In this document: one piece after another, positions 4,198 to 64,000 of the stretch
How positions within the stretch are numbered: the stretch's first letter is position 1
Layout of the letters: each line of letters starts with the position of its first letter
Assembly: GCA_009192285.1 (NCBI GenBank)
Contig: CM018609.1
Coordinates: 575,282 to 639,281 of the forward strand
Length of the DNA: 64,000 nucleotides
Source: Morchella semilibera
Lineage: Eukaryota; Ascomycota; Pezizomycetes; Pezizales; Morchellaceae
Direction of reading: 5' to 3'
Translations under genes and position numbers: made by a program
Notes under the pieces: model-generated
Seen by the model: only the letters and a program-made list of their open reading frames with translations
Databases searched by the model: none
Told to the model about the DNA's origin: nothing

Positions 4198-6883
4198 GGG
4201 TTACCATCCTTTTCTTTGTTTCTCCTCTTGCGTCTTACGAGTTTCGTTTTTATCCTAGCCACGAGAATAAAAAGGACTTTTATCTCTGCCTTTTCAAAAG
4301 GTAATTGGAGGAAGGGCGGCAATTGTTTGGGTTGTTTTTACCGTTGTATAGGTGTAGTGGGCAGTGATAACAAGTCTTTTTTTTTCTTCTCTTTTTTTTG
4401 TTTGACCGAGTTTTTCTTCAGTGTGCATTTTTTTCTCAGCAGGCGGGTAGGATAGAAATATGTAGGGTTGGTTTAAAGTTACTCTTTGGGCCCAAAAGTT
4501 GGCATATGCAATGGTTATGGGGTTGCGGGGGGAGGGAAGGGTCAATGATCGATCGTCTAGTAACCATTAATAAAAATAACTGACAGTGTCTATCTCCCAC
4601 AAAAACCTGTCTGTTTTTTCTCTCACCAATTAAGCTCGCGGTGACCAAATCAACGGAGAACATACGTGCCTACCTAGCTAGATTTGCCTATGTAATACGA
4701 CGCGGTATTCAATTTACCGAGGATAATCAAATGCCCGGCTCCCCCGCATCTTTTTTATTTTCCGTTTTTACCGGGGGGAGGGTGGCTTTCCTGTTTTTAT
4801 CCCCCCCTGGGCTCTCGGGGGCCGACCGGCTTGACCGGCGGCCCGGGAGGGAGGACACGTAGAGTACTATACATATGGCGCCCAGAGTCTAAAACCTACA
4901 CCTCGTCTCAAATCCCTAATGCTTTTCACCATAACACAAAGCCTTCAAAAACTACATTCTCATAAAGACAACCTGCCTGGGCCTAGGTGAATATGGCCCC
5001 GCCCGTATCACCAAAAATATGTGTTGCCGGGTTTTATTGCCGCCAAGAAAACCTCACTTGAGATGCTGGGCGCCATACCATACTTACCTGTATTGACATG
5101 ACGCCAAGGTCATCATCGGTGGCCCTGGTTACAGGTTACAGGTTACACACCCCTCCTCCCCTCTCGCGGGGGGGCAGGCAGGGCTGCAGATTCATTACCA
5201 CGCCTTATGCAGGTTGGCGGCGCAGGCGTCGTGCGGGGTGGGAGGGGTGGAAAGAAGCTTTCGGGGGTCGGGCCGGTTTGGCGGGACTACTGTGTTGGTT
5301 GTAGGTTTGTAACGTATTGTGGGGCATGTAGGGGTCGGTTTTGTGCGAGTGATGGCGTGTGAAGAAGCAGAGTGAGAGGTTGTGCTGGAAGGGTTAGGGG
5401 TGCACTGGTTGGCTACATGTGTATATGTAGCTTGGCACTGAATTTTAATTGCTTTCCTCGAAGAGACGCTACCGCGCCCGGGGCCCTCTGGTAATTGGGG
5501 CCTGGGAAGGGTCTGGGGGCCTGGTGGGGTATCCGGTCGGGCTTGTTGGTGATACAGGGGAAGAGTGTATACAGTGCTGGTGGCTCATTAGTATACATAC
5601 ATGTACCTTGTCTTGTTATGTTGCAAACCACCCAGAGCCGTGTCGGGGCGGGGCGCGCCGTGCTTCTTTGCCGCCTGTTGGGGCTGGACTAGCTGTGGGT
5701 AGGGCTGGTCCATGTAGCTAGCCCGTCTCTCCCAGATCTAAGGCGACCATGCAGGAGGAGCGGAAGGAAAGATTCCCCAACTGCATTCATTATTACTTTG
5801 GTGAGGGGCTACAGGCCCAGGTAGGTATCAAGCACCGCCCGCCCCCTATGTGAGGTCGTTTTACCCTAGCGCTTTTGTTCCCGGGGTAGGTACATACACT
5901 CACGAGCCATCACTCGATCGACCGGCGGGCCCTAAACCCTCTTTCCTGCTCTCCTTCCTTCCTTCCTTCCTTATTTCCTTCCTTACTTAAGCCACTATAT
6001 ACATGTTGCACTCCCCCCTCCAACAAACAGATCCCATAGTATAGACTAGACTATACGATACGCCCCCCCCCCCCACCACCACACCACCACTAGCTCCAAG
6101 CACGAAGGCCGGGCCGCACCGACACCCACGGCCCGGACGAGCGAGAGAGGGCCCACGACCCGTACGAGGGTTATATGTAGAGTCGCCCTAGGCCCGCCAC
6201 CAACAGTTCGGTCCCGTGGCGGTGGTGGAGAGTATATGCAAGTACATGTAGATATGGGTGATAGATGGAGCCTACGCATCTATTTGCGGGCGGGTTACCG
6301 GTGGGGGACTGGATTCTTGGCGCACGCGAGTGACGGGTTGTGATCAGTGGCTACATGTATTTAGCTCCCCAGCAGTCAGTCCAACTGGCAGAACAGCAAA
6401 CCACGATGTAATTAAGGGGCCATCACTACTACAAGACTATCACACACAACAAAGGGAGGAAAAAGTGGTTCCATGAATACCATAATATTGGCGCTCACTA
6501 ATAGCTGGCGTAAAATTACATCTACATCTTCATCTCAGCTCACTACCACGATTCTAGAGTACACAAAGCCCATGTCGTACAAGGATAAAATAGGAAAGAC
6601 ATTTAAGATGCAACACCACCCATAACATATGATAATAAAAAGGAGATTATGATATTATACAAGCTAGTGCGCGCTATATGGAGCACTATATAGGATAGAT
6701 GATGGGAGGAGGTAGAGGTACTTATCCGAGCCAAAATAACAATAAAGAAAAGAAAAAAGAAAAGAAAAAAAGTCATAACCCAAATCCCACCATTTAAAAA
6801 GCCATAATCAAATCAAATAAAAATAATAAAAGAAACTCGTCCCACCGTCGTTACTCCTCCCCGCGAAATCTCACGCCACACAT
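4198..6883. other. Intergenic between BAR gene and ABC transporter
   Basis: No gene is supported. The stretch holds three tandem GGTTACA units at about 5128-5148, a TTCC microsatellite at about 5948-5980, and a hairpin GCTACAT/ATGTAGC at about 5412-5431. Palindrome TACATGTA occurs at 5598, 6243 and 6352. The 17-bp bipartite motif occurs at 5346-5362 and 6327-6343 (as CGAGTGAY-N5-RTGA on the plus strand) and at 5900-5916 (opposite orientation). The AT-rich 6480-6883 part is the 3' flank of the transporter. Confidence 0.55.
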
Positions 6884-10960: not shown

Positions 10961-13900
10961 TGTGGAGTGGGACTACGTGGTCCGGGGGAGTGTATTATTT
11001 TTGGTTTTGTTCTATGAGATGGTGTGTGGGTATGTAGCTCCTTTTATAGATATATGTATTGTGATTATATTGTGGACTTGTATGGGGGATCTCCTGTGGG
11101 CAGATATGTAGACGGTTAGCGATACTACTTCTAATAAATTGTCAGGGCAAGCTCAATCTCAAGCTTAAGCTTTCTGCGTGTGCACGATCCTCGGCCTGCC
11201 ACAGACATGCGCCGGCTAGATTTGGCGGGGGAGGGCTTGTGTGCAGTTGGTAGTTGGTAGGTGGGGTGGTAGTGGGTTGCTGGGTTTTAACTGACCTTAT
11301 CCGTCTCAAACTATCGTTTTCGGCAGGTTGACCAGGGATGGATAGAAGAGAGAGGAAGAAAGGGAGAGAGGGAGGGAGAGGGAGAGAGAGAGAGAGAGAG
11401 AGAGAAAAGGCAGATGAAATCAGAGAGCACTGTAACAGGAAGCTACAGGTCCTGAAGAGACAGAGAGAGTGAGAATGAACGAACTGATCTAAACAGTACT
11501 GGTCGACTGAAGAGGGAAAGAAAAAAATAAATAAGGGAAAATACTGCTCGTTAAGTATCAAACCTTCAATTCCACTTGACAAGGGGATAAATGTGGGTTT
11601 CTATATAGTCACCAACTTAATCTTAACTTCCTTCATGAAATCTCGGAACGACGAACTTCCGAAGTTGTAGTGGTGGTGGTGATACAAGGAATAATAATAA
11701 TATTGGCCACCTCCCTTGAAGCCTTCCATTTCCCCCCACCCCACCACCAAGAAACAAGCAATAGGAGATACCTAATTGGGGTTGAGTACACTACGGCCCG
11801 AACTTTGACTTGCCGTACTTCCCATTCACCCTTCCCCCATGTCAGCAGAGATCTCACACCTGCTTTGCGTGCGCGCACACTCACACTATCACTCTTACTC
11901 ACAAGTACATGAAGTACATATAAGGTACATATAGGTTCCGTACCTATTCTGGAAATGGAGGTCTTTATTAATCTGTAGGGTCCTGCTTCGCTCTAAACGC
12001 CTGAAACACCCAAACACCCAGAACGCGTGGTTGCAAAGGTAGACTTTCCCGCAAATGGCTAACCCTTCGCTAAATTATAAACTGTCACCCTTCGATAGAT
12101 CCTAGCGCAGCTCAGGAGAAACACAAAAACCGCCGGGAAATCGTCGTTCCGAAAAACATACATAATGCACATTGCCTCGAGCTCCAGTAACTCCCCTTTC
12201 ATTTTGCTGATGCGGCCCGCGCCAGCCAAGAGGAACGAAGTAAAGTATGTAAATATACAAGGAGGGGAAAAAAATAACATCGATATTTTTTTTCCCGCTT
12301 CCCCTTCCTCGTTAAGTGGTGGTCGTTTTTAATAAATATCCCCGTATGTTCATTGCATGAGAAGGCGAACCAGTCCCAATCTAAACCCAAGGCCCAAACC
12401 CGCCCTCCCCCCCCCCTTCCCCCAAGACGGAGTTCCGGCACTTTGGGACTCAAGAAGAAACAAGCTTTAGCTAGATGTCGACCAGCGATTGCGCTCGTAG
12501 CTTTTCGTATTCGCTTTTGCGACACCGGAACTCCGTAGACAATCAACCAAAAGGGGTGCTCTAGGATCAACCGCTGATTGGTTATAATTATCATTGATAG
12601 AAAGAATATCTCGGGCGAGAATGAAGGCAAATATGGTCAAGGTGAGGGCGATCGGTTGGCCTAAGCAGGGTCCATGGACCGTGCCACTGGCAAATGTGTC
12701 AATGGGTTCTGCAGACCGCATTCTTTGGCCTTATCCCGGGATAAATAAGAGTCATATTAAGACAGTCTCGATAGTTGTAACCAACCTTCTTCTAAGAGAT
12801 GTTAACGTTAAAGATAACCAATGGGGTTTTTTTTGTTGTTACACTCATGACTCTGCGTGTTATATATGACGTGATGTCACATATACTCCAAGTGCAGAAA
12901 TAAAGACATCTCTCGCTTGGGAACCCAAGCTAGTGAAAGGGCAGTTACACAAGGTCGACTCTCTATTACGCCAGACCAGTTAACAGCTTTCAGCTTAAGC
13001 CCGACGAGGAAGCACGGGCATCCCGACTACTCTGAACCCTTCTTGTCTTTCGCTGCTGCCTCTGTAGTCAGGTGATGATACCGATAAGGCTACGGGTCAT
13101 GAATCGTCACTCGCCCTGTTGCATGACTCATGGAACGCGGATATGGCTGCCGCACAAAGAATACCAGCAGCCTTAATATTGTCGGGACTGTACAAGAATA
13201 CCACGTAATAATAAGGTCCAGGAATAATTGTAACGTGGAATGTTTAGTCATCCAAGATCACTCGTATTTCACCATTCCAGTGGATGGTTGTTTACGTGTT
13301 GGATATGATATGATCTGGACGATCTAGTACATTTCCGGTGTTGTTTCTGATTAAGTGTCTTATTTGTGTGGATCTCCGTGAGTCAGTGGTGCCTTCGTAA
13401 ATATTATCACTATTAATGCAATTGGTGCCAACCTTAAGTCCGGCCCGTAAATACGCATTAGTGCCGGCGAAACCATTTCCCGGAGTAAAAGGCGCACATT
13501 CGTTCGCCAAAAGAAAAAAAAACATCGAGATTCTACCCCTTAGGTACTCAAGGAGTTTTTCAACGAATTCTCTCCATAGGTTTTTGAAATAAGTATTCAA
13601 AACGATGATTAGCACCCAGATGACCGTTTACATGCGTACGGCTTTCACGGATTTATATCAATAGTCCTTTTCCAAAGTTAATACCCTCACCTCCACCCCC
13701 CGCCCTCAATACTAGAGCGGCTTTTTCAACGAACACACTCCATAGACCCTTGAAACTGATCGTAAAAACGATGGTTAGTACCATGATAGACCTTTGCATG
13801 CGTGTGGAATTCATGGGATTATACCAATAGTTCTTTTCTAAAGTTCATACTTCCAACCCCACCCCACCCCCACCCTCAGTGCGTTTCGAACCATTACTCA

Positions 13901-16813: not shown

Positions 16814-18589
16814 AGGATAACCGTGGGCATGATTGGATAATTTTGCTCTATCATATTCTTGCGGGGTAAATGTGTTATTGCTTGGATCGCTGGGGCTGAT
16901 AAATGGCAGTCACTACGAAAAGTTTCATTTAGCTGCGGTTTATTTGTGGTTGTATGGTGGATAATAGAATGTTAGAGGGATAAGGAATCGGGCTTGCATC
17001 ATAAAAGATCACTCTATATCTATAGAGGTCTTCCGACGCGGTTGTTACTAAAAAAAAAAAAGGCAAGGAAACAATATATATAGCTTTCAAATAAAGGAGT
17101 CTGTTACTAGAACCAAAGAGATATCACCAGATCACAAACTTGCTATGTAAGTTTCAAATTATCTACAGATTCTGTTGGTGGTGGGCTCGGTTGTGGTTTG
17201 CGGCTTGCTTTCGCAGGTCCGCTTCCGGGTTTCTTTTCTTTGTCCTAGGCCTAGCTTGTTGGGGGGTTAGGACCAGATTAGATCATATTACCTCTCCAAG
17301 TATATAGATCAGATTAAAAACAGTAGAATAGCCAATTCTGTCATACTGTCACGGTGTTGCCAATGTTTTGCAATTGGGTAACGGGCAGATCGTAATAGCG
17401 AGGATTAACCTCATCATCATTAATACCTAATAACACATTTTATACTTCCACAAGCCTCCTGCGCCAATTACCGCAATAGGCTCCTTACAAACGCCACCTA
17501 TGTTATAGTGATGGGCTAGGGTTGCAGTGAGAGGATAAGTGTATCAACTTAAATTCTTATTTGTGTAAATTGACTTTTGGCTTGGGAGGAGCGACGGTTT
17601 AGAAGTGCTACCGTGCATGGGGACTAGCCTTTTTGTTTCAAGCGTATGCTAATACGTCCATTTATAAAGTCAATTTTGGGGCAGCGACGAACCTGGGGCA
17701 ACGACAAAAACACAGGCTTCAGTCAATCAAGCGATTAGATGCCAGCCTAAGCACCTGTGCTCTATCCACCAAATATCCCTGTTCGATCGTCGTTCAGCCA
17801 GTTTCGTCATTGTCCCAAAATGACTTTACAGGTACGTACGTACGGGTAATTTTTAAACAAAGATCCCTAAGTTCTAGCCCAAAAACCACGCCCAATTAAG
17901 AAAAGTTTAAACCCCGCTACCTTATAAATTTCTATAAGGTAGTAAAAGCTATCCCTATCGAACTTTATCCTACCTCAGCTATGGAGTCTCGAGACTCTAT
18001 CCCCGAGACTTCCGCTAGACCTTGAGGCTTTGAGAGACGACCTGGTGGATATGTCTAGCTCTTTTACGTTATCACAGGGCTTAAAACTACATGTAACTAT
18101 ACATGGAACCACTGTGATGGGCATAACCCCCTACTATACTTCCTCTTTGTGAATCTGCACAAAGAGCTAGAGAGGCTCGGATGGTTCGTGACTCATGGAT
18201 TATCACTCGTATTTAGTGTCTACGCCAAAAATACATGTACTTGTCACTAATATTTGAGTGATACTTCATACATGCATGCAGCACTTGTCACTAATAGGTT
18301 TTTGCTCAAAAATATAAACTGTCCAAAACCGCCCCCTCGTAACCTCAAATCACTTCATGCGCTCCTATAATTCTGAGGTAAATATATATAGATATAAGAC
18401 TTTATAAATTTTCCACTAGAGCATTAGAAACACTACAAAGGTCCAAGCCCAAAGTCCCAATCACAACGTATAAGTTTTTCGAGCCAACCCTATCCCGTAT
18501 ATCGAACCGAACCGTAATTCTTCATCCTGCCAATAAAAACAAACATTACATATCAAGAAATAAAACATTACCCACGTGATAGGGCACAT
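16814..18589. other. Intergenic with decayed sequence
   Basis: No intact gene. At about 17404-17500 there is faint similarity to the start of the preceding F-box gene (ATTAACCTC and then ATAGGCTCCTT in the same order, about 30 bp closer). A hairpin CTACCTTATA/TATAAGGTAG sits at about 17918-17943. At 18201-18220 and 18243-18263 there is an imperfect inverted repeat beginning TATCACTC, and the 14-mer ACTTGTCACTAATA is directly repeated at 18239 and 18283. TACATGTA occurs at 18088 and 18232; the bipartite motif occurs at 18193-18209, with a near copy ending CTCT at 16999-17015. Confidence 0.5.
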
Positions 18590-27285: not shown

Positions 27286-27992
27286 AGCTCGAGACTCGAT
27301 TGGGATGAAAAATTAAAGAGCAAAGTTCCTTGAGTACTTGAAAGGTTGAATTAATACAGCGCGCAATACTAACGGGAGGAAGGATGGGGACAGTAGTAGA
27401 GCTGAGACAAAGGTGGTTGTGATGCGCTGCTTGAAGTTATTAGACTCGGTTGTAGTGACGACGTGTCTATTGATATGTATAAGGATGACAGACACTCTTG
27501 TATTGTCGGTGTTCGCCGTGGCTTTTATTAAGGATCTGTCCAACAACAGCCCTAGAGAATAGGCTAATTATTTCTATTATTTAGGATACAGTTCGCCGTA
27601 AAGATCACTCAGATGATTCCAGAAAGGTGTTCCTATATGCACCAAATTTACTAAATCTATAAAGATCGTATCATATTGTTTAGTCGGGGTTTGGGGCCAG
27701 TCATTGGTGATCACTCGATCGCATTCGACTTAAATGTTATATATTTTTTTTTATTTATCGTTAAGTTTACTACGATGTTCGGGGAATATTTATACAACAC
27801 TCACAACTAGATAAGTGAAGGCTGTAGTATGAAGTTATTTCCGTGTTAGTGACCTATAAAGTCAATCATGGGACCAAGAAAATGGTGGAGCAAATATCTG
27901 ATATTCAGATCGCACATCTAGCTCTATGGTATCGAAATATAATATTCCCTTGGCTCTAGAGCCTCTCTAGAACAAACTGGACCGTAAAGACT
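27286..27992. other. Intergenic between C2H2 gene and tubulin cofactor A
   Basis: AT-rich spacer, promoter side of the zinc-finger gene and 3' flank of the cofactor gene. One copy of the bipartite motif lies at 27701-27717. Nothing else is seen. Confidence 0.5.
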
Positions 27993-39993: not shown

Positions 39994-41224
39994 ATTGAAA
40001 AATAGTTCAAATTATAATAGTCAATTCATTACATCTTCACCACACTAAATGGGAGATTTGGAAATGGCGATATTGTTTTTTTCTGTTTTTCTTTCCTTTG
40101 TAATGTACTATTATGGTAAATGTGTAAAGGGGTGGAATGGGGAACGCAATAATTCAGGGGTATGTTAAACGTTACGTGGGGGGTGGTTGTAATGGAGAGA
40201 AATAAAATACGAAGATTACATGTATCTTTATCTGTTGCCTTTGTCCTACGCATCATTTCCACATCTCGGGTGAAACCTCGCCTACATGATACATACATGT
40301 ACCTACATGTACAGAATTGCTTTTTTTCGACAGGTTACGTACATACATATGTGCTTTAGGGTAGTGAGTGATAATAATAATTAGATCCGCGGCTCATAAA
40401 GTAGCTACAGTCACAAATCCTCTTAAATAGGCCGCACACATCCAGTAGTAGTGAGGTGATTGAACGCGAAAAAAAAAAAGGAAGATTTAGCCCATCCGAT
40501 TCACCCCTATAATAGAAAATCGTGGTGATCAATAACCTCATTGAAGTCGACGGGAGTGAACACAGTGTAACTATTTATCTAACGGCATAAGTTGGCAGTG
40601 GCGACAACGGGTGATATCGTATGATGTTCATATTTCCTTATTATCTCCATACAATACCTTACTACATGTAGTTTAACTCTAGTTAGACAACAATAGGAGA
40701 AAGAAAAAAAAGACAACAAATTATGGCCGCAGAACCGGGGTTAGCGTTAACCTCAAATTAAGCTTAACTTCCAAGGTTGTGAGAGTGACACTGCCAAGGA
40801 TTAGAATGTCCAGTTTCCGGCAGGCTTCCAAACATCAGTCCGCTTTACCGACACCATTTCCTCTAAAGTTTGTACCTACCTTCTATTTCCCATCGTGCAA
40901 TAACAGGACCAATTTATGCAATGGTCGCCAAGCGCATATCCATGTCTCATCGGCGGCCCCATCGGTTCAAACCCCGAAGCTCTTGTACCTGACATGAATG
41001 CCCAGATTCCAGATCAAGTACAGTTTCATATAATAGCCGGGTACTCTCTTGTTGCCTAATTAATTGATTGACTATCTAGACGAAGTAATCTTAGTATACC
41101 AAGAAGATTTCGGGGCATCGTATATTGAACTCCGATGGGTGCAATATAGAACTTCTGGGCAATGGCCTTTATAAACTGAGGATGTTGTAGATTATTTCTT
41201 CACCAGCTTTGCAATACTCTCGCA
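39994..41224. other. Intergenic between CFEM-like and glucanase genes
   Basis: No gene is supported. TACATGTA occurs four times, at 40218, 40294, 40304 and 40663. The part after about 41000 is the glucanase promoter. Confidence 0.5.
41168..41175 (+). promoter_or_regulatory. TATA-like box of the GH5 glucanase gene
   Basis: TTTATAAA lies 50 bp before the start codon at 41225, at a position that would give a short leader, as in many highly regulated secreted-enzyme genes. Inference from sequence only. Confidence 0.4.
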
Positions 41225-43158: not shown

Positions 43159-46102
43159 GGGTGTTTGGGGTTTTTGCAGTAGTGAGTGTGATATAAAAGC
43201 ACATAAATGCATTATTAAATTGAATACTTACATTGTCGCCTATTGCAAACTTTCTGTGTGATTGGCCTGTAAAATCGTACTCTGGTTGGGTAAAGCGTCT
43301 GATGAACCCGTAGATTCAATACCAGAGAGCCGGGTGCGCAGCAAGTTCTTGATGGAGGCGGATGCCTAGAGCTTCATCCCTTCTATTAGCATGAGGCCGC
43401 TATATCGCGCCTGTATTTGCATCTAGCCGGCGGAACGACTTTGAGAGTTAGTTGGGATAAGAATGCATGGAAGTTTGAAAGGCTTTAGTGGGGCCTACAT
43501 TTATTTTGGGCTAGTAGGAAGGAGTGTGCGTGAGTGTAGTGGTTGGGTGTGATGATAAAGATTACCCTAAATCAAGTCTAAGAGTGGGAAATTAAAGAAC
43601 GCCAAGAGCATGTCCATACAATGGCACGTACCCCATAATTTCCATAACCGATAAACTCCAAGGGTAAAATTTTCACAACTTCAGATCATATCTCTAGCAC
43701 ATTTACTTCAAGGCCATCTTTTTATCAAGAATTTCTCCACAAGTATACCGTGCACACTTAACCTGGGTACTACATGTACATACATTACTACCGACTGAAA
43801 ATTCGGTTACGTGAACGCCAAGCTCTGACTTCAATGCCTTCACCACTTGTTAAGTAGATTTCCGCGTGACCTATATTTCAGTCGGAATCCACAGTATAAT
43901 CGGGGAACCATAGGGTACAGAGGTAGATCTAAATTTTTGGCTACATGCAGCTTTATATTACATTACATGTTGGTAAGTAAGTGCATGCACGTAATAATAT
44001 ACATACTTGAATAATGATGGGCTACCATTTTGGGTTTTCACCGACGCTACATTGATGTACTTACTCCCACGAGCACAATAGCGGTCTTTGGGCTCTAGGA
44101 ACCGCTAGTGCTTAATTGCTCCATTGGTTAAATGTAGTACATGTACATACTAACATTGTACGTGTCATAATACCCTCACGAGGACTTTGGAAAGTATAAA
44201 CTACATAACATGCACGCCCAACTAGCACAACTCTTAGTCGATCCACCTGGGTCATGGTGCCAGTCAGACCGTCAATCTTAAGAAAAATTCCCGGCTTTCT
44301 GATCACAAAAGCCCTTGAATTTGAAGAGTGGCCGCATGTACATACTGCGGTATCACCGACATGTATGCGTACATGCAGTACATGTATAGAAAGTGGCATA
44401 CATGTAAGAGGTATAGCACATGTACTAAGGCCCCATCAAGGCCCTCAATAGCAAAGTTTATTCCTCAAACTACAGCACCAAAAAGAGGACAATTTGACCC
44501 TGTTCCTGCTCACCTTCTGTGACCCGCGAGCCATCCCAGGTGGGCTCACTACGTTAATACGCTAGCAATGCGGTATATAAGAATACAATATTGGTACAGC
44601 ACTCCCCCTCTAATGCCGGTTTAATTCGGTATTTGTCACTAAATCCCGTAGTCCCATGGTAGCGATTCCACCCAATTTCCCCATACTGTACGTATACCTA
44701 GGATATAATGTGGCGTATCTATGGCATCGTGCTACGTGTGTTTACGGCATTTCTCGGCATCAACCATCGAGTGATAACCTGTGAATGGCAACCTTGTTTG
44801 GGATAGGCCCTTGGTGGGGGGTCTAATTTAATGGATCCATCATATCGCCAGATGCCCATAAATATGTATATATATATATAAATATATTTCTCCTCTACTA
44901 CAAGACATTTACCGCACTTTGTGCTTGATCGCTTGACCAGTTTTGAAGGGTTTGCCCGGTATAAGCCGACAGCTCAGGCAATACTCTATCAACCCTCCAA
45001 TTAAATATCCAGAGATAAGTTTCGTATAGCCCACCCTATCCAATCAACACACATGGTTAGGTAGTATTATTAATCGTATCCTGATTTTTAGGCCTAAGTT
45101 GGAAATGCTGTTCATGGGCTTAGTAATTATAGCATAAGCCCCGGTGTTTATAGGCTATGAATGAAGAGTACATGGTCTGTACATCTATTACCAATCCCAA
45201 CGGTGATGTATTGGTACGTTATTTAGTATCTGGGCGGAACTCGGCCAGGTTCCTTCTAAACTATAGCCATAAATGTATTCGGGGCGTTGTGTGGGTTGTA
45301 TGACTTTCTCAATTGTTCCTGGACACAAGCAGATTAAAATAAAGAAATAAACAGCTATAGGTGTATGATGTAGATCTAGATGCAGTCAGCCCGGCACCCT
45401 TACTTGCTACCCCGGTATATGCAGCATTACCTTTCAAACTTTTGCCCTGCGAATAGGTGATTGCGGTTCATCTAGACCAAGTCTTTGGGTGCTTTATAGA
45501 CATGGTTTCGGTCGAATTGATTGGGTGTGGAAAACCGCCAAGTTATTGAAACGGTAGGGGTAGGTTTGGGTGGATCGATACACGAAATACGTCGCAAAGC
45601 CGTAAAGAATTTTCATTTCAAAGTGGTAGAAGGGTAAACAATATCTCATTCCCAGGCTCGGTGAAGATGGGCTAGCTCTGGACTATCGATGACTGAAACA
45701 AGGGTTGAATCGGCCGGGTCTGTGAACAGAGAGGGGCACATGGCGTCTAGACAGGGAGATGTTGCGGCTTTTCAACCAAAGCGCCGACCCGGTAAGATAA
45801 TAATTCTCTAGAGCATACGCAAATAGATGCTTAAGGTGGAGACGAAACGCGAAACAAGTTGACCTCAGGGTTAGGGCTCATCATCAGGCAACTCCAGGCG
45901 GCACCAATCAACCACACATCCCCAAATTGCAAAGCTCACCCCCGTCCGTCACACCCAACAAGCTGCTTGCTGCTGCTCCACGGCTTGTTTTCCGCTGCGC
46001 AGTTAGAAAGCAGATATTTTATAATTCTCCTACTTTTACCCCTTCTTTTCTCACCACTCTCCCATCTCTTCGCTCGAGAATCGGATCTCCCTTCACTCAC
46101 AG
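43159..46102. other. Intergenic between glucanase and alpha-actinin
   Basis: No gene is supported. TACATGTA occurs at 43771, 44138, 44379 and 44399, within a stretch (44130-44425) where ACATGT or near copies appear every few tens of bases. The bipartite motif lies at 44768-44784. A TA repeat is at about 44870-44890. The last 200 bases are a pyrimidine-rich leader of the alpha-actinin gene. Confidence 0.5.
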
Positions 46103-48363
46103 ATGGCTCAACAGCAGTGGATCGTCACTCAGGACAAGACCTTTAGAAAATGGTATGTTTCCCCCCCTGTTATCGTCGCCCCGCTTCCCCTCCATCGACC
46201 ACTACGTTATCCTCCCCCTGAATGAGGCCTGGCAGATGTGAACTGTGACTAACTGGCAATGTTTTCAGGCTCAACTCCAAACTTGCAATTCGGAATATTC
46301 CTCCCGCAACCTCTTTGGAGAAGGACCTTGCCACAGGGGTATTGCGCCTTTCTTTCCTTGCTCTGTCCCACCCTCCTTCACGTGGCGCATGTGCGATAAA
46401 CAAACAAACAATGGTGGGGTGACTGACCTGGTAACGAGCCAACTTAACAGGTACTACTTATCCACCTCCTAGAAATTCTCGGCAATGAATCACTAGGGAA
46501 GTATGCATCGAACCCTCGACTGCGAGTACAAATGTGCGAGAATGTCCATAAGGCGCTCGAGTACATCCGTGGCCGCGGGATTCAGCTCTTGAATATCGGC
46601 GCCGAAGATATTGTAGATGGGAATCTCAAGCTTATCCTGGGCCTGCTATGGATGCTGATTCTGCGATTCACAATCAACATCAACGAGGAAGGTTTAACAG
46701 CTAAGGAAGGTTTGCTACTCTGGTGCCAGCGTAAGACGGCATGCTACGAGGAGGTTGATATCCGGGACTTCTCGAGCTCATGGAACAACGGTCTCGCTTT
46801 GTAAGAAAGCTTCCTCCCCCCCCCTCCATCCCCCGGCGGGCTATGCTAACAAACAAACAGCTGCGCCCTCTTGGATATCCACAGACCAGACTTGATCGAT
46901 TACGATGCTCTGGACAAATCCGACCACAGGGGAAACACTGCCCTCGCTTTTCATATCGCAACCAAGGAAATCGGCATTCCCGCCCTTCTCGATGTGGAGG
47001 ATGTCTGCGATGTCGCTAGACCGGATGAAAAATCTTTGATGACCTATATTGCTTACTGGTTTCACGCATTTTCGCAACTTGATAGAATCGAGACTGCAGG
47101 GCGAAGGGTTGAGAAATTCGTGGAGGTCATGCAAGGGGCATGGAGTATGCAACATAATTTTGAAAAACGGATGGCCGAGCTGCTTAAACAAATCAACGAA
47201 GTTCGTAATACGTGGACGACTGCAAAATTTTCGGGAACTTATGCGGACGCAAAGAGTCAATATGCCAATTTCGGTGCCTACAAACGGACACTCAAGCGTG
47301 CGTGGGTAGCGGAGAAGGCAGACTTAGTGAGTTTACTGGGTAATATCAAGACCAAATTGAGCACGTATCGGTTAAAGGACTACGAACCACCCGCTGGATT
47401 GAGTTTGGCAAATTTGGACAAAGAATGGAAAATCCTCCTTCAGTACGAGGGTAAGAGGAGTATGCAGATAAACGAGAAGATTAGGGATATCAAAGAGGGA
47501 TTGCGTCGGGAATTTGCCAACTCCGCAAATGAGTTTGCACTTTGCTTGAATACCGTATCGCTTAAAATCAGTGAACTCGACGGAGAACCAGAGGTAAGTT
47601 GCAACCGCTTTCTTTCATGATTACTCACTCGGATTTATTGCTGACATGCCCACTATAGTACCAACTCCGAATAGTTCGCACACTCCACAATAATATTATT
47701 CCCCTCGAGCTTGAACTCGATCGCATCGAGAAATTAACGGAAGACTGCGAAGAGGCCAACATTGAGGAAAACGACTACACTGTGTACTCATATGACGAGC
47801 TTGAATATGAATACGGGCTTGCAAAGGAAAGTGTTGCCAAGAAGCTTTCCTTCTTGGATAACCAGATTGTCGCCCGGAACATGACAAATCTTACCCCTAT
47901 TCAATTGGAGGAGTTTGAATCCGTGTTCCGTCACTTCGATCGCGATCTCTCCAACTCTCTTCACGAGCTGGAGTTCTCCGCCGCCCTCGCATCGCTCGGT
48001 TTGGTCTATGATGAAGAGGAAATGCACAGCGTCTTTAATACCGTAAGCTCTGGCGGTCGGTCAGTGACGTTTGAGCAGTTCATCCGCTTCATGGTTGAAG
48101 TAACAGAAGACCAAAACTCGGCGGAGCAGGTATGGCAAAGTTTCAGAGAAGTTGCCGACGGAAAGCCTTATGTAACTGAGGTGGACCTACGACACTCATT
48201 GATACCAGATGGAATGATTGAACAGCTTGTGAAAACGATGCCCAAGGTCCGTGTTAAAGTCGAGGATGGTGATGATGAGAGAGAGGAGGAGGGGTTCGAC
48301 TACGAGAAGTATATGGAAATTTTGACAGGCAAAGGGCCCGGGACAAATGGGGCCGGTAATTAG
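46103..48363 (+). CDS. acnA: Alpha-actinin (F-actin crosslinker)
   Basis: Five exons, 46103-46152, 46269-46338, 46451-46800, 46861-47593 and 47659-48363, give 635 residues. Two calponin-homology domains form the actin-binding head: CH1 at about 8-112 (WIVTQDKTFRKWLNSKL, VLLIHLLEILG, NIGAEDIVDGNLKLILGLLW) and CH2 at about 123-230 (GLLLWCQRKTACYEEVDIRD, NNGLAFCALLDIHRPDLIDY, IPALLDVEDV). A shortened rod of spectrin-like helices follows (about 240-460), then EF-hands: FDRDLSNSLHELEF, a second degenerate hand, and a third, calcium-poor pair at the end. Fungal alpha-actinins have fewer spectrin repeats than animal ones, which fits. The protein bundles actin at the septum and cell tip (acnA of Aspergillus, Ain1 of fission yeast). 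All splice joins are in phase. Confidence 0.95.
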
Positions 48364-51300
48364 ATAAAGCAAGCCCCAAGGCAGCGGGAAATTGTTTAAG
48401 TATTAATTATAGCATTGGGTTCGCGACTTTACCCTTTCTTTCTTTTTGAAAAGCGTCCACAACGTTCAGTGGAAATGGGGGAAATCGTACAATTGGTTTC
48501 CTTCAAACGCAAATTGAATGGCCCTTTGCGCTCCTAGGGGTCATTTCTTGTTTACTTCCCGTTATCTTTTTTTTCGTACCTTTGATTGAAATACCCGATT
48601 TTGCTAGCTAAACTTTAGGAAATTTTGAATGTCTGGGTTATCCTGTTTCCCCAGACCTGCTTTATCTCTTCTTCTTTCCCAACACCTTTATTATTTATGT
48701 ATTTCTTTCCCTTACTCTTTTTGCGGGCGGTTTCCACAAATTGCATTTCGGCGACCGGTCGGTTTGTAGAGGGGGTTTTTGCAGCGTGTTATCTGACCTT
48801 GAATGAAACGATCGTGGACGTGCTCAGGAAGGGAGACCAGCGATGTAATTATGATAAATGCTTTTCTTCTATTTTCTTGTTGTTATCCTTGTTTGTCTTT
48901 TGCTTGCTGCTACGGGTGGAATTTGTACCTCTAGTTATTAGTAATATGGAGAAGCTAGGTGGGTGTGAATTCTATCTAACCAGGCCGCTACCGCCGCCGT
49001 TATTATAGCAGTACATCTTAGGGCCCGTTTGGCAACTAGACAGAACGGAGTTTCCAAGGATCAAGACCTAGCAGAAGGATCGTTGAAAGGGTGAAAACTC
49101 CTGTTGCCAAACGAGCCCTTAATCATCATCTCTCACTCCTGTGTGCGCACTGACCTCAATGGGCTCCACATGTCTCACTTGGCCGCGGGGTTATATATTG
49201 CAGCGTGTGATATGATGGAGGGGTGATAACATGTATCTATAGGTGTCAACCTGTCTTTTGCTGGATATGCACGCAGACTTAGTGTCGGGGTCTCTGCCAC
49301 AGTGAAAGACCCCTATTGGCTGGTCCGTGCCCGGTTTCCGAATGACAAGCAACTGGGTAAGGACCTCTTTTTTGTAAGGCCTGAAGAAAGATTGATCACT
49401 GCCCTCGCCCTTGGTAAGGCCAGTAGTAGTGTAAGACATGACAGGCGCACCTCCGGTTGTGGTGGATATTGACCGAACTCCCTTCACATCCTGCCACTGT
49501 ATTCTTACATTGCAGGTCCCTGGTACATGTGTGTGTTTTTGCTCTCCAAGCTGAAAGTCGAACCCCCCAATTAACACCCAACCTGGTAAAAAGCCCAAGC
49601 GTTTACTATGGCGAGTGATATACTATGATCCCATGTATATTACGAAGGTACATGTACTTACCCCTTGGCATCGATAGACAGGTGGTACATGGGTATGCTG
49701 ATAGATAGCGTGTATATATATAGCCTTGGTTTTGTGGGTCTGGGTCATAGATTGTTCCTTTGGGTACGTCTCATGCCCTCAGCGCTGCAGACAGCTGCGC
49801 TGCGTTAACCCCTCTGTAGGGCTACGTATAACGTTTATTGACAAGCCCCAGTGATGGGCTGGTATTCCCTGCCTGGCCCCAGGTTATGGAGCCCCTGTAT
49901 GATGGGGTATAAGGCACATTATACTATGCGGCGCTACAAATCCTCAAGATGCCCCAACAGTCAGCATCCGGCACACCAGGAGTCAGCTTGAGAGGCTAAG
50001 CAGGTTGGAAATCAATGGCTTAGGAGCGGATTGGAGTGCCTCTCATGGCTCTGCTTCTTATGGTGCGGTACTGGGTAAATGTGAGATCCTTGATTTGATA
50101 TGGGGTTGGTTGGCGGATCATACATTCCTTTCTGGAGTGACTGTAGTAAGTTAGTTGGAGTCTCTAAGTAACATGATAGACGTACGTAGTGCTCGAGCCA
50201 GAGGGCTTAAAACACCCGGAAATCTAGCCCGGGGGTATATAACCCGAGGACGCTACATTAGGCTCTAGTTAGTGTACGTAGAAGGTTCGACGGTATTTCC
50301 AGATACTTTCTTCAAATCACGGTTTACGCGTTGAGCCATCACCAATTGTGATACAAATGGGAGGTTAATGATGTAGGGGGCCTGAGAACGCCGTAGGGGA
50401 GTTTGGGGGGTGGGGCTGGTTTTGTCTTTAAGCTGCATTAAAAGAGGGCCCTTGCCTTAAGGTGCTAGAGTCAGCATCATGAGCTATATACATGTATGCA
50501 GCCCTCACCACTAGCCGCCGTGGGGGATCACGGAATATGGTGAATAAATACTCTACACAGCTGCAGCCTGTCCACATACTTCATATCCACACTCCATGTC
50601 ATCCCTCGCTACTAGAGCTGTCAGATTCGGCAAAGCCCAGACCTTACCCTAGTGTAACCTACGCGTAGCTAGGCAAATTAGCGGCATTCGAGTATAGTAT
50701 AACGACCACGGGATATTGGAGTCACAGGGTATCACTCGCCATATAGTACCACGTGTTTGCCGTTGTCAGTACATGCAGTGACGGGCATGGCCCCGCCCGT
50801 GACAGGCAGACAGACAGACAGACAGGGTAGGTTGGTGTCGGGCGGCTGCAAGCAGCTCACGGATGCCAAGCCCGCAGGGCGGACGCAGTCCCGCCCCCAC
50901 AAACTGCCAGATCTGAGAGCCTGCTGAGGAAGCCAAAGCCGCACAGTGCGGCCAAACGATTAAAGTATACAAGTATACACAAGGCAGCGAGAGGGGAAGA
51001 GGGCGGGAAAGAGCACCCACAGATCTAGAGGCAATCAAACCGGTCCAGCTCTGCAGTTGCGATCGAACTAGCAGTAAACAAATCCTTTTCGAGGGACCGA
51101 GAGGAAAGGGTCGAAACCCATGGAGGACAGCCTACAAGGCCTAGGTACTCCACGAGTCAAGGGCAAAATTCCCCTCCTACCCCCCACCAGCGAGGATCCT
51201 CCAAAACGTGACTTCCTAAATATCGCCACCCACCCCACCCCACTTTTGGTATCTACAGTACAAAGTACTTTAGGCATGGCGAGGTGTAGAGGTGTGTGTT

Positions 51301-53441
51301 TTACACATGATGGTTCGCGGAGGTTTCACCGTTGGGACTAACTGTGCATGTGGTTGACATGGGGTATTGGATGTAGATCCTTGTTGAAGTTGGGGTCAGA
51401 TCTGAGCCATGGGTCAAAGGCTTGTTTCTCTACTTTACTGGGCCTGTAGATGGTTAATGCTTCCATGTGCTTGGCTGTGGAATGTGCGCGCGGTAATGGC
51501 GCGCTTATCTAGGTTCATGACTACATACACACTCCAGGACGCTTGATCGTGGGTATGATTGTGTGCTTATACTTGTAGCCACTTACTTAGGAGGAACACA
51601 GGCGGACGATGTCTGGAGAGGTGGTGTTGGTCACAACGGATCACTCGGCCCCAAATCTAGGCAGGCATTGTAGTGGCCACCCTAGGTGGTTGGCGTTAAC
51701 TGTTCTGTACGCGTGCAGTGTTAAATCAATAACGTCTAATCTATTGTTTATAACTGGTCGGTTACTGGGTAGTCAGTTTCATATTCACCAGTCTGGCGAA
51801 GTATCAAGGGATCAGATTACATGTATTTATCCAGGACTGCTCTCATGCATACATGTATTTATCCTCATTTTGAAGTCATGTACGCCTATGTAGGGATACG
51901 AGTCCATGCGTGCCTCCAATTGACAGCTCAAGGTTAGATATTGCTACGAACCGGTGGGGTCGTAACCACTTCCAGATCCACACACCCCTACTTGTAGCAG
52001 CTGTGTGGTCGCTACAGGGCTTGCCATATTGGAAGAGGCTTGGAGATCTGATGATACAGTATGCGCCCATAAATTCAATTGGCGATATCCGTGCTGAAAG
52101 AGCTACGAGTTTGTTGCAGGGGTAAGTTAACGACTCTACATGTATGTGTACTCAAAATAGACTATGAGACAGCCTATGGTAACGCGGAAATGGGAGGGAG
52201 GGAGGGAGGGACAATGGCGCCATCCAGAGAGGTCAGTGCTGTAAAATTGCCCGGACGGCCATGATGGTCACTATAAATTAAGCTTAGTGTTACGCGTACG
52301 TACTGAGGCATCATAGCGATGAGGTTTGGACATGTGGCTAGCACATGAAGTACATACAGGTAGCAACACCAACTCCAAGTACTTAAGACATTGAGGAAGC
52401 TGCTGGTCATCCATAGTGCCTTTGAACAACAGAATAGAGTGCTGATGATCACTCACGTTTTTCAATACCCAGATCGCTTCCAACCAACCAACCAACTACT
52501 CGGGACCTCGGAAGTCGGAACAGAGAATAGGGCTGCCTGTAATGATGATGATGTGCTTGACATATATCCGTAATTCCCCCGTTGGCCGTTTTTGAGACCC
52601 TGATTTCTTGGCAGGGGGGGGGGGGGGGGGCGAGATGTTGGACCCTGGTAATAGCTACTAGCTGAGTACAGGGTATCTGTGTTCAAAGTTCTTTTTTTGG
52701 AAGGGTTTGTTTAACTGCGGCTGTGAGGAAGACGACGACGACGACAGGACAGGACAGGACAAGACAGGACAGGACAAGATGTTTGTGGAGTCTAGTATAT
52801 ATATATACTGAACTGTATATTGATCAGGTACCACAAGTATAATAGGAGCTGATAAAGTTGGTACACATACATACTTTAAATATTCGCATATCTGCTATAC
52901 TCTACTGCTATTGGTCGACCTATGATCCATCGACTAAACTGCATACCTGGCTGGCTGTCACTCACTCCCGAGTTTTCCTAGAGCCCTGTAATACCCTTCC
53001 TTCCTTCCTCCTGCATTGCAAGCTGGGCCCCACCCCCGTGCTGCATTACGTTGTTCCAACTTCCCACCCCCCCCGCGCCCGATACAGTACCTTTTCAGGA
53101 GACGGATTCAACATTGCGCAGGCGCAAGAAAAATCAATCTATCTCTCTGTTTCTTATCAAATATCTGTCTCCTTCAAAAAAAAAAAAAAAACATCCATCC
53201 ACCCATTCACTCACTCACACACCCCTCCAACCCCCCCAACCACTTTACACGACTCACGAAACCCACGCGAGCCAATCTCCGACATACGCTGATCAGTTAC
53301 AACGCCTCTTTCTATCCTTTATTCTCGATCTATCCGTTGAAAAGTGTGCTGGTTGGCCCTCGAAAGTTCACTAACAAAACGGAGGAGAGGAGTGTAGAGT
53401 GTGAGGGAAGGAGGAAAGGATAACTGCGTGCTTGGACGAGA
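48364..53441. other. Long intergenic stretch between alpha-actinin and MID1
   Basis: About 5 kb without a supported gene. After the alpha-actinin 3' flank comes the small inverted-repeat element at 49021-49118. An open minus-strand frame of 135 codons at 49191-49598 has no recognisable family. Simple repeats: GGGA at about 52194-52211, poly-G at about 52613-52631, a GAC/AGGAC repeat at about 52731-52780. TACATGTA occurs at 49649, 50489, 51818, 51850 and 52137; the copies at 51818 and 51850 share the longer word TACATGTATTTATCC. The bipartite motif occurs at 49612-49628, 50722-50738 and 51631-51647. The final 450 bases are the pyrimidine-rich MID1 leader. Confidence 0.5.
49021..49118. mobile_element. 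Tourist-like MITE (PIF/Harbinger group), 98 bp
   Basis: The ends form terminal inverted repeats, GGGCCCGTTTGGCAAC on the left and the complement of GTTGCCAAACGAGCCC on the right, 16 bp with one mismatch; a further GGAGTTT pair lies inside. The element is flanked by TTA at 49018-49020 and TTA at 49119-49121, the 3-bp target duplication used by PIF/Harbinger transposases. The GGGC-CGTTTGG end also fits that superfamily. It is far too short to code for a transposase, so it must be non-autonomous. It lies about 650 bp beyond the alpha-actinin stop. No second copy was found in the window. Confidence 0.75.
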
Positions 53442-55433: not shown

Positions 55434-56760
55434 GCGTGTCTAGTTCATCCTCTCCTTTTCTGCTTCTTCCATGCCGTCGGACTGCGTTTCTGGTTGGAAT
55501 TTTCTTTTCTTCTGTGTGAGATTTATGTACTGTTTGTTGTTACTTAGCAGAGGAGCAGAGCGATTTGACGAACAGAGAAGGAAAAAAATGTTTATGACTG
55601 AGTGGCTTTGGGGACCTGGGGTGAGGCGTTTATTCCTTGTATTTCTTTTCTTTCTTTTTTTTCCCTTCTTCAATACCTTTGGCTTTTTCTTCTTCCTTTC
55701 CTCCCTTCCTTTTTGTACTCTTTTAATATCCCTCTTATGTTCTTTTGGCACTTGCGCTTGTTGGTATCTAGTTACTTGGCTCGTTTTTCTCTATCATGTT
55801 AGATTAGGATCTTTTTTTATTTTTATTTTTTTTCGGAAACGGTATTTGGGGGTGGGGTGGGGAAAGGTAGGGATATAGATACTTGTAGACGGGGTGTGTG
55901 AGGTACAAAATGAGAGATTTGAAAGCTATGTTGTGGATTTAAAGATGTGCGTTTTATCTTGTGGTGTGCTTGTGCGGGGGTGGTTAGTAGGCACATGTAA
56001 GTATGGTTCGTGCGGTGTGGGGGTGAATGCGGGTGAGTATGGGTGCGGGAGCACTGGAATGGAAATGATAGTGTTCACGTTAGGGTTGGGGTTGGAGGGA
56101 GCGCTCTGGACACAACCGGGATGGGTGCGTCATGGGAAATCACCCGGTGCCTAGTTAAGGCGGGTGGGCGGGGCGTGGGCGTGGAGAGGAGCTGTACTAG
56201 GCAGACAGGGAGAAGAGGGTTTACGAGGACTACAGGTAATACAATAGGGTAGCTGTAAGACAGAGGGGGGGTAAAGGTAAAGGTATATATACCCAGCACT
56301 ACATGTAGTTAGGCAATACAAAGTTCCACATGGGCTTTATAAACACGAGTGATTTTGTATGTTCTGGAAATGAGTTATTTGGCCGGTTGACTTTGGTGCT
56401 ACATAATACCAGTTGAGAATGGGAGGTGTTGTTATTTTGGCTCTTTTATTATACTGGGGTTTTGATAGATGCTTGTGGACCTACTACTACTACTACTATT
56501 CTAAATCTACTAAATGCTGGCTGGCATGGCATGGTATGGGAACTCTGAATCCGGTAGCAATTAGCTATTGCCTGGCAATTGCAGCTCCCAATATACCCCA
56601 ACCCTCAATTGGAGCTATTTATGTAGTCCGGCCCATAAACTACTACTATTCACACACACACCGGCCCATAAGAACATTGCAATTACAAAAAAAAAAGAAG
56701 AAAGGAAAGAAAGAAAAAAAACACCCTTAGATTGCGGTGTTTCCCTCTATACACAATCCC
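55434..56760. other. Intergenic between MID1 and complex I subunit gene
   Basis: T-rich 3' flank of MID1 to about 55830, then GT-rich sequence. A TAC repeat is at about 56482-56497. TACATGTA lies at 56300 and, 46 bp on, an imperfect copy of the bipartite motif (CGAGTGAT-N5-ATGT) at 56346. No gene is supported. Confidence 0.5.
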
Positions 56761-59259: not shown

Positions 59260-60965
59260 GGGAGGGTGGTAGGGTAGGGTAGGTTAGGGACTTTTATGTA
59301 GAAAAGTTAGATTGTATTGTTAAATTGTATTAGGCGTGTTCTTTTTTTTCTTTTTTTTTCTTTTCTTTTTGCTTCGTGACTTCTTCTTTTCTGCATTGCC
59401 TGTATACTAGTAGCATAGCCTGGCAAGAGTCTATAGAATCAGTTCTTTCTACCTTCCCCAGTCCCAGTTCCAGCACCAGTGATAGTTTCCTCCTCCTCTA
59501 GACACACACACACCCACAGCAGCGGAGAGCAAACGTATATCACAACCATACCCCCCCCCCCCCCGGAAGCGGCAATCATATGTAACCATCCCGGCGGTAG
59601 GGTGCCCCAGGAGTGTACTATGGTGCCGGTCGCGATAAATCTACCAATACTCCCCCTCAACATGCCCTCCACACCTCACCTATAACACACCCCAAGATTT
59701 TAGATATAGAAAATTTTAAAACATAGATTAGGTAGCTCCGGTGATTATCTACAGAGTGGCTGTTTTGGATTTCTAGATTTCTAGATTTGAATGTGGGTTG
59801 ATAGGTTTCCTAACTGGGTGGTTTTGGTGTAAGAAGTCTTCAATGTCCGCTATGAAAAGTGTCAATATCATAGGGTTAGGGTGAAAATACTGAGGGTTAG
59901 GGGACTGGGAGTCTAGAAAGGTAGGTTTTTGTCCTCAAAAAGACATTAAGTTTTGAGAAAAACAGTTTCTATGCCCAAAAAAACCACTTTTTGGTCCTGG
60001 GCTAATGGATATGTAGTCCTGCTGTGGCTGCGTGTGTCCAGTTCCCCCGGGGGCGGACACATCCGGTTAATTAATTTAGGGGCCACGTATGCAACCTACA
60101 TGTACAGGCGGGTCCCGTCAATTGCATTAAGGAGATTAGGGCTGGTCTATGTCTATCTACATGCCGGTGGGATGTACGAGGTGGGAAGGGCATCGAGTGA
60201 TCTGTCGTGATCGTGACCCGCCGATTTCGCCCGCTTCCACCGCGTACCGGTCCCCCGCCGCTCTAGACATAGTACTACTACACTAGGGGCTACCACCTCG
60301 CCTCAAGCAGGTACATGCATGTATACACGTACTCTGGTTATCCCCCCTCCGCTCCCCCAATCCCATGCATTCCTGCCAGTTAATTTCATTGCCCTGAAAT
60401 GAATGATGTAATTGCCAAGGAGATCGATCTTTCCACAAATGGGGGGGGGGCTCATAAACTACAATGACACAAACAAAAGCATCGTGGCGTGGCCTAGTGG
60501 TAATACACTGGGCTTCGTCATATGACCACGACAGGTTCAAATCCTGGTGGGAGCAGTGATGAGAAAGCCCAACATGGTAGCGACGCTCTTGAGGGATGAA
60601 TACTTCTTCACGTAAGTCTTTTGTTGCCGGCTTTTTTATCATTTAATTTGACCGCGAGTTATGGAACAGTGGTAGACAAATCCTCTCCACGGTACGTACA
60701 TGTTGTCACCCTCAACCAATAGGTTGCGGGGCGCAAAAATGTGGTTGCAGGGCCTACGAGTGACGGCTTGTGATTCGAGAGTGGCTAAGGTTGCACCTGC
60801 AACACACACACACCGCGCCCACCAGCTAGAACCTAAACACGGGTGAGAGAGAAAAAGAAGAAAGGTCTGGTATTCGACTAGCAAGCCCGTATAAACGCTA
60901 CCTAAACTAAGGATACACAAAACAGAGACGAAAACGAAAAAAAAAAACCGAGCTACACATGAATT
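59260..60965. other. Intergenic between WDR70 and citrate synthase 3' ends
   Basis: Convergent 3' flanks. A poly-C run is at about 59551-59564. Short TAGGGTTAGGGT and GAGGGTTAGGGG words at 59870-59903 resemble telomere repeat but are not an array. TACATGTA lies at 60097. The bipartite motif is present at 60194-60210 and 60757-60773. A tRNA-like head lies at 60483-60554. Confidence 0.5.
60483..60554 (+). repeat. tRNA-like pol III head (degenerate tRNA or SINE)
   Basis: An A-box match TGGCCTAGTGG at 60490-60500 and a B-box match GGTTCAAATCC at 60534-60544 are 44 bp apart, exactly tRNA spacing. The T-arm pairs over four bases (CAGG/CCTG) and the D-arm weakly (GCC/GGC). The acceptor arms (positions 1-7 and 66-72) do not pair, and no normal anticodon stem forms, so this is not a working tRNA gene. 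It could be a tRNA pseudogene or the head of a tRNA-derived SINE; a T run follows at about 60630. Confidence 0.5.
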
Positions 60966-62596: not shown

Positions 62597-64000
62597 GGTG
62601 AAGGGTCTTTATGCAGGGACGGATGTGCTAAGGCGTGTCAACGGGAGTGCTAGAAGAATGTGGAGTAGAATCTAGGAGCTGGGGGGACCGTACTAGTATA
62701 TAGGTAGATAGAATAGGTTGTGTAGGTGTATCTGAGAAGTGGGGAGAAGGGCAGGAGGTGAGAAAGAGAGAGGGAGAGGGAGAGAGAGACCCGTGATCGT
62801 GAGGTCTCAATCTTTGTCAGGGCCGTGGTTAACCCGTAAGCTTGTGATCGGTTGTGTTGCTCTAGGTACGTCATCTGCTTTACCGAGGCATCTCGGTCGT
62901 CCCAGTTTCATCGATCAGCAGCACCCAATAGACAGACCCCTTTAGAATAGATATTGCTTTTGTCGAATTGGCTGCGGGGATCCGTTGCATGTATCGATTT
63001 GTGAACCGTGAGGGCTCTTAACAGTTTGATGTTAGCTATAAGAGTATGCATCTCCTAACAATAACTCGTAGTTAGGCTGTCTCCTACTCGTCTGTCAGCT
63101 TTCATGACTTGGTGGACGTCTTTCCAAGACCACCGGGTGGGTTCTCACCTCTCCGTACATGATGGTGCGTGCGTTGCCGACGGAATAATGGAGCTACAAC
63201 AGAGAGTGCCATGGAGGCTCCGGGAACACTCCATAAAAGCCCACCGAGATATATCTCGGAAGACCGGATGAAAACTGGGCGGTATAGCGGAGATGGATTG
63301 TGGGGTAGTGAAATAGTTTTACAGAGAGAAGGGAAAGATCGAGAGTTCAAGGTCAATAGATTCACATAGTATCTGATGGATAATAGGATATGGACTGCTT
63401 AAAATAGGCACTAGGATCCTTTTTGACTCTCTATGGATTATCCAAAGTGGATATCGTCTCTACTTTATAGGAACGAAAGAAAGCATTATCCCGATTAGAA
63501 AAGACAAAGACCTATTAAGGAAAGACAAAGAAAACAAAGATTTTACGCTGATTCGTCAGCTTCTTTTTCTTGTCTCGAACCAGACCCAATTCGGCTTAGT
63601 GTGGTTGATAAACAACTTGGTTGCCATCTCAACGCCAGGTTTATTAATTATCCTAGGCACGTGACCCACCTAGCGTCTGGTTCGAGACAACCTATTGCTA
63701 GCTTTTCGGGTTAGACTTTTAGGAAGTGCTATGCAGAAATCACGAGAACTTTTGTCACCTTACAATAGCTCCCGGGGTTCCTGCATCACGTGAGTTGTCA
63801 CCGCACCTCTAAGATTCACAGGCGATCACTCGTCGCTAATGCCCCCCGAAAACTATAGAGTAGTATAGTCTCGGCCAAGTTTACTTTGTGGTCCTTTGGC
63901 TTTGAGTCTATGATTACTTCTTTTTGTGAAGAGGACAGAGCAGTACAAGACTCGGTTGACATGACTGGCTACATGTATATACAGTATAAGAGAGATGTCT
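62597..64000. other. Intergenic upstream of citrate synthase to window end
   Basis: The first 300 bases are the citrate synthase promoter, with a GA-rich run at about 62763-62790. Beyond it I see no gene. The inverted-repeat element at 63570-63690 is listed separately. The bipartite motif occurs at 63816-63832 and TACATGTA at 63970. Confidence 0.5.
63570..63690. repeat. Short inverted-repeat element, possible MITE, 121 bp
   Basis: TTGTCTCGAACCAGAC at 63570-63585 is matched exactly by its complement GTCTGGTTCGAGACAA at 63675-63690, a perfect 16-bp terminal inverted repeat around 89 bp of unrelated sequence. I see no convincing target-site duplication, so the superfamily is open and it could also be a chance or structural palindrome. 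It has no coding capacity. Confidence 0.55.

Follow-up and report, generated by a model that had tools for sequence, protein, structure and literature searches.

A bipartite 17-bp motif, TCAY-N5-RTCACYCG, repeated in the gene spacers of a 64-kb region of Morchella semilibera: a putative protein-binding site

The locus and the copies of the motif

The region analyzed here is a 64-kb window (64,000 nucleotides) of the genome of Morchella semilibera, contig CM018609.1, positions 575,282 to 639,281, in which a bipartite 17-bp motif is repeated in the spacers between genes. The motif, TCAY-N5-RTCACTCG, had been described in an earlier note on this DNA, and an exact pattern search recovered all 16 of the coordinates given there. 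Nine copies were found on the plus and seven on the minus strand of the whole window, corresponding to a density of approximately one copy per 4 kb. All counts reported below were made in this single window.

The genes were predicted by a small model for codons and splice sites, for which the long open reading frames (ORFs) of the window itself served as training set, and were named from Pfam. These were: a BAR gene, an ABC transporter, an ankyrin protein, a C2H2 zinc-finger protein, a GH5 cellulase, a calponin-homology (actinin-like) protein, Mid1, a WD40 protein and a citrate synthase. Furthermore, genes for a chitin-binding polysaccharide deacetylase, a proteasome alpha subunit and tubulin cofactor A (TBCA) were present. 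Such a gene set would be in keeping with a filamentous ascomycete. The TBCA gene (PF02970, 27993-28466, minus strand) is small and contains introns; it was missed by the codon-based predictor and spotted by eye, and other small intron-rich genes may be missing from the map as well.

The convergent spacer between the BAR gene and the ABC transporter carried TCACACGCCATCACTCG at 5346..5362 (-), TCACGAGCCATCACTCG at 5900..5916 (+) and TCACAACCCGTCACTCG, a G variant, at 6327..6343 (-); the palindromic word TACATGTA, which is treated below, starts 9 bp beyond the last of these, at 6352. A second G variant, TCATGAATCGTCACTCG, was located at 13097..13113 (+) in the divergent spacer between the ABC transporter and the ankyrin gene, with TCATCCAAGATCACTCG at 13248..13264 (+) 151 bp apart from it on the same strand. 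The convergent spacer between the ankyrin and the chitin deacetylase genes contained TCATGGATTATCACTCG (18193..18209, +), and TCATTAGATATCACTCG (25266..25282, -) was found in a tandem spacer. TCATTGGTGATCACTCG (27701..27717, +) is situated between the start of the C2H2 gene (27285) and the 3' end of the TBCA gene (about 27993), and TCACCAAGTATCACTCG (31148..31164, +) in a convergent spacer downstream of the proteasome alpha gene. Tandem spacers also harbored TCACAGGTTATCACTCG (44768..44784, -), between the GH5 and actinin-like genes, as well as TCATAGTATATCACTCG (49612..49628, -), TCACAGGGTATCACTCG (50722..50738, +) and TCACAACGGATCACTCG (51631..51647, +), all between the actinin-like gene and Mid1. 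In the convergent spacer between the WD40 and citrate synthase genes TCACGACAGATCACTCG (60194..60210, -) and TCACAAGCCGTCACTCG, again a G variant (60757..60773, -), were present. Finally, TCACAGGCGATCACTCG at 63816..63832 (+) lies 1.2 kb upstream of the citrate synthase start and outside the 13 internal spacers.

Counts, spacing and refined consensus

The core word RTCACTCG was found 17 times in the window, 14 times as ATCACTCG, for which 1.7 copies are expected, and three times as GTCACTCG. TCAY was located nine bases upstream in 16 of these 17 words, in line with the fixed distance claimed before, and at any other offset examined (-40 to -4 and +8 to +40) it accompanied at most two cores. 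Other gap lengths, which the earlier note had named as internal controls, behaved accordingly within the window: TCAY-Nk-RTCACTCG gave no match for k=0-4 and k=6-10 and a single one for k=11, compared with sixteen for k=5.

Control sequences were generated by an order-3 Markov model (200 sets for perfect copies, 60 sets for the mismatch classes). Here, the full motif was expected 0.04 times on average and twice at most, and the RTCACTCG words 2.75 times with a maximum of 7. Among 300 column-permuted motifs with the same gap, 288 gave no match and 12 gave one. An unbiased scan of all 5-mer pairs with gaps of 0-20 in non-exon DNA placed this motif among the listed top words, the others listed being only TACATGTA-based words and one TCATC repeat. 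The excess of the motif in the window is a real signal and too regular for chance.

The fixed bipartite form of the original consensus was retained, but its 3' half had to be widened. Only two RTCACCCG words were present in the window, and since both of them carry TCAT in place the consensus was rewritten as TCAY-N5-RTCACYCG. The two halves are thus kept together, as TCAY precedes 18 of the 19 RTCACYCG words, including both RTCACCCG words, at a distance of exactly 9 bp.

When copies were grouped by their mismatches to the original consensus TCAY-N5-RTCACTCG, rather than to a weight matrix, the observed and expected numbers (60 Markov sets) were 16 and 0.03 without mismatch, 5 and 0.77 with one, 5 and 12.0 with two, and 112 and 106.8 with three. 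The excess was therefore limited to copies with no or one mismatch, and copies with two were below chance. Such a sharp profile is expected of selected sites and not of decaying relics: an old neutral family would show more near than perfect copies, whereas the reverse was found here. A weight matrix, which was derived from the same 16 copies so that its scores are not independent evidence, placed these copies at 19.5 bits or above, five further ones at 15.4-15.8 bits and the next best at 10.9 bits.

Both near copies mentioned in the earlier note are real, namely ACATACAAAATCACTCG at 56346..56362 (-), in which the first T of the motif strand is replaced by A, and TCATAAAAGATCACTCT at 16999..17015 (+), in which the last G is replaced by T. 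Three additional copies with one mismatch were found. The T-to-C variants TCATACGATATCACCCG (40608..40624, -) and TCATGGGAAATCACCCG (56130..56146, +) correspond to the two RTCACCCG words with TCAY in place, and TCATGATTACTCACTCG (47615..47631, +) consists of CTCACTCG with TCAT and is located inside a predicted intron (47594-47658) of the actinin-like gene. The copies at 56346, 16999 and 47615 differ by single changes and may be of chance origin, given that 0.77 one-mismatch copies are expected; the first may also be a degenerate site.

Position of the sites and comparison with known elements

No copy fell into the predicted exons, which make up 34% of the window (0/16, P=0.0013), and the best local coding score at the sites was at most 3.7, compared with -3.0, 4.6 and 12.0 for the 5th, 25th and 50th percentiles of known exons. 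The former statement that coding exons are free of copies is thereby supported for the 16, and an exonic signal was rejected on these grounds. A single exonic site could escape notice, since 25% of the positions in known exons also have scores below 4.6. A Pfam scan of 41 ORFs (38 over the 21 perfect and near sites and three TBCA exon pieces, excluding nine site-overlapping ORFs scanned separately before) gave one match, which was a TBCA exon. An RNA gene or tRNA-like element was rejected as well: Rfam identified no RNA family in the window, ribosomal DNA is absent from it, and no tRNA was predicted there by ARAGORN (bacterial code).

The tests of position relative to genes were devised post hoc, on a gene map known to miss small genes. 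Fifteen sites were located in the 13 internal spacers. Convergent spacers held 7 of them with 23% of the spacer length (P=0.035), divergent spacers 2 with 26% and tandem spacers 6 with 52%; with earlier gene maps the test for convergent spacers gave P=0.024 and 0.073. The nearest gene end was a 3' end for 11 of the 16 sites (background 0.44, P=0.038). A predicted start was found within 500 bp of a single site out of 16 (2.6 expected); the sites had a median distance of 2.2 kb to a predicted start, the background one of 1.5 kb. The sites are thus without promoter bias on this incomplete map; the earlier note had made no link to promoters either. It had stated that most large spacers hold at least one copy. 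This is true for 9 of the 13 internal spacers, but the number is barely above the 7.9 expected from Poisson scatter.

In its form the motif resembles the Abf1 site, which is likewise bipartite and non-palindromic, opens with RTCAY followed by five loosely read bases and serves as a general regulatory site located in spacers. The second half is different, however, being ACG in Abf1 and RTCACYCG here. The Abf1 consensus is RTCAYTNNNNACGR, which was absent from the window (0.8 expected), and TCAYN5ACG was found 10 times (11.6 expected). These patterns are not enriched, and motif positions 11-12 are TC in all 16 copies, so that the motif does not agree with an Abf1 site. For budding yeasts the Abf1 core is given as CGTNNNNNRNGAB (PMC12305957), and D. 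hansenii, C. albicans and Y. lipolytica are reported to lack an Abf1 ortholog (PMC2897762).

The Reb1 core is given as TTACCCK (PMC12305957). RTCACYCG is only one to two transitions apart from RTTACCCG, and tandem half-sites would fit a Myb-pair protein, whereas the cited consensus is without an obligatory TCAY 9 bp upstream. The motif does not agree with a Reb1 site, as TTACCCG is contained in no motif copy and was present in the window at chance level.

Two direct half-sites bound by one protein are also known from the Rap1 hemisites, with the consensus ACACCCRYACAY; their spacing is 8 bp, compared with 10 bp here. This consensus was not found in the window, where the 0.06 copies expected are too few to be informative. 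Targets of type I restriction and methylation systems share the bipartite form with a free gap but are bacterial and have other half-sites, and the genes of the window are eukaryotic. The HomolD, SREBP, AP-1 and CRE consensuses were not enriched in the window. A mild excess unrelated to the motif sites was observed for Tbf1 (AACCCTAA, 3 copies, 1.5 expected) and for Cbf1 (TCACGTG, 9 copies; 4.1 expected, standard deviation 2.3, maximum 10).

Further words were over-represented in the window. The palindrome TACATGTA was present in 30 copies, e.g. at 5598, 6243, 6352, 18232, 37566, 40294, 44379, 49649, 51818, 60097 and 63970, and with 2.1 copies expected its excess is larger than that of the 17-bp motif. 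It was found within 50 bp of 3 of the 16 perfect copies (1.2 expected, P=0.12) and of 5 of the 21 sites including near copies (1.6 expected, P=0.017), which are those at 6327, 18193, 49612, 40608 and 56346. The same palindrome is abundant in promoters of Phytophthora, is preferentially bound by Irx homeodomains and corresponds to a rare excision footprint of Tc1 in C. elegans (PMC3520976). AGTCAGYR was found 14 times (4.2 expected), e.g. at 13381, 14128, 20090, 20770 and 24938, including six copies of AGTCAGTG, five of them followed by G. GGAAATGG also had 14 copies (2.2 expected), e.g. at 2713, 11951, 40060 and 52186, with unrelated flanks. Some copies of both words lie in predicted exons.

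With regard to the neighboring genes, the GH5 cellulase at 41228-42892 (+) carries a CBM_X2 domain, a combination known chiefly in bacteria. The actinin-like, citrate synthase, WD40 and ABC proteins gave pattern matches in viral contigs, and Mid1 in genome contigs, none of which was confirmed as a relative.

Putative binding protein and alternative explanations

The site is non-palindromic, has one fixed spacing and is used on both strands, and its five gap bases and flanks vary. A binding site, as proposed before, is the natural reading of this composition, and TCAY-N5-RTCACYCG is probably recognized by one sequence-specific DNA-binding protein or rigid complex. From the former interpretation the constrained, bipartite and spacer-only nature of the element, its fixed spacing and the argument against a transposon were retained; the number of occupied spacers proved to be near that of random scatter and the consensus was altered. 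The TCA cores of TCAY and RTCACYCG start 10 bp apart in the same orientation. Two similar reading heads might therefore contact TCAY and RTCACYCG as tandem half-sites, one helical turn apart and on one face of the helix, and would span the gap without contacting its bases. Proteins with two Myb domains (Rap1, Reb1, Rtf1), pairs of TALE homeodomains and arrays of zinc fingers of which one is silent are architectures of this type. Each of them could recognize the motif, and none is favored.

A general regulatory or architectural role of this putative factor is preferred because the sites are numerous and sharply defined and show no link to promoters. The protein would stay on its site for long, exclude nucleosomes and thereby mark or partition the intergenic DNA; possible outcomes would be a boundary, a roadblock that stops read-through from one converging gene into the next, or a platform on which further factors assemble. 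We put this role forward tentatively, at slightly less than even confidence, and the same applies to the whole statement of a binding site together with a general or architectural factor. Like general regulatory sites, the motif is sharp, strongly enriched and non-coding; unlike them, it is not concentrated in promoters on the incomplete gene map. Yeast lineages replace their general regulatory sites, and new ones are described for Y. lipolytica (PMC2897762). Since such sites turn over between yeasts, a hitherto undescribed one in another fungal lineage is plausible.

Several points weigh against a general or architectural factor. General regulatory sites of yeasts occupy the nucleosome-free regions of promoters (PMC2897762), and few of our sites are near promoters. 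The support comes from a single 64-kb window, and one site per 4 kb, scaled to a genome of 40 Mb, would amount to about 10,000 copies, which is high for one factor. In addition, the excess in convergent spacers and at 3' ends is weak, was tested post hoc and depends on a gene map that misses small genes.

The second-ranked explanation is a conventional transcription factor that controls a large regulon and whose sites serve as activating or silencing elements far upstream. In length, polarity and bipartite structure the motif is usual for such factors, and the spacers are long. However, promoter bias is lacking, the sites seem too dense for a single regulon, and the neighboring genes (ABC transporter, chitin deacetylase, tubulin cofactor A, proteasome alpha subunit, Mid1 and citrate synthase) share no function, so that we regard it as unlikely.

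The third is a replication-fork barrier, transcription terminator or origin-linked site bound by a terminator protein of the Myb/SANT type (Reb1/TTF-1/Rtf1-like), to which we give less credence still. The excess in convergent spacers would agree with it, as would the tandem half-sites, such as are used by Myb-pair proteins. S. pombe Reb1 is a precedent, binding Ter-like sites also outside ribosomal DNA and arresting forks and RNA polymerase I (PMC5368702). A polar terminator or fork barrier would be orientated consistently to transcription, but a hand count of the 11 sites nearest to a 3' end gave 5 on the same strand as that gene and 6 on the opposite one, and the Reb1 core TTACCCG was found 5 times with 5.5 expected.

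A remnant or target of a mobile element, or of other recurrent DNA processing, instead of a host protein site would be compatible with dispersed copies found in spacers only, and the predominance of perfect over near copies would fit a recent burst. Nevertheless, we consider it improbable. The N5 gap is different in each of the 16 copies, and the best match between 250-bp flanks of non-overlapping sites scored 29.2 bits, compared with a mean of 28.2 and a maximum of 34.6 bits for the best matches in random spacer sets; two higher scores came from neighboring sites with overlapping flanks. Visual inspection of the aligned flanks revealed no target-site duplication, and the repeat listing of the window contained no family of at least 30 nt that includes the motif. 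A transposon or repeat family was rejected accordingly, which agrees with the original view that gaps and flanks are unrelated and that the copies do not stem from a recent transposon. Chance or a bias in base composition, even in a window that had been searched by eye for anything unusual, is practically negligible and was rejected by the Markov and permuted-motif controls given above.

Among these readings the general or architectural factor is ranked first. String searches of the literature (main texts; supplements were outside the search and subscription journals mostly so) yielded no description of the motif among the papers that were listed and opened, and the matches followed into papers were primers only; CACTCG, CGAGTG, ATCAC and GTGAT were absent from the main text of the fungal motif papers checked. 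Most of what is known about general regulatory and architectural factors comes from yeasts and animals, and to our knowledge those of filamentous fungi are poorly known. In its most far-reaching form, which we hold to be doubtful, the preferred reading would describe a lineage-specific genome organizer of filamentous fungi that has no known counterpart and marks the intergenic DNA at intervals of a few kilobases by means of an almost invariant tandem site of 17 bp. It would be an analogue of CTCF or Reb1 with a different recognition code, acting as boundary or roadblock with a preference for convergent spacers. If the count holds genome-wide, the motif would be a direct bait for its protein and would allow a test of how evolution replaces general regulatory factors.

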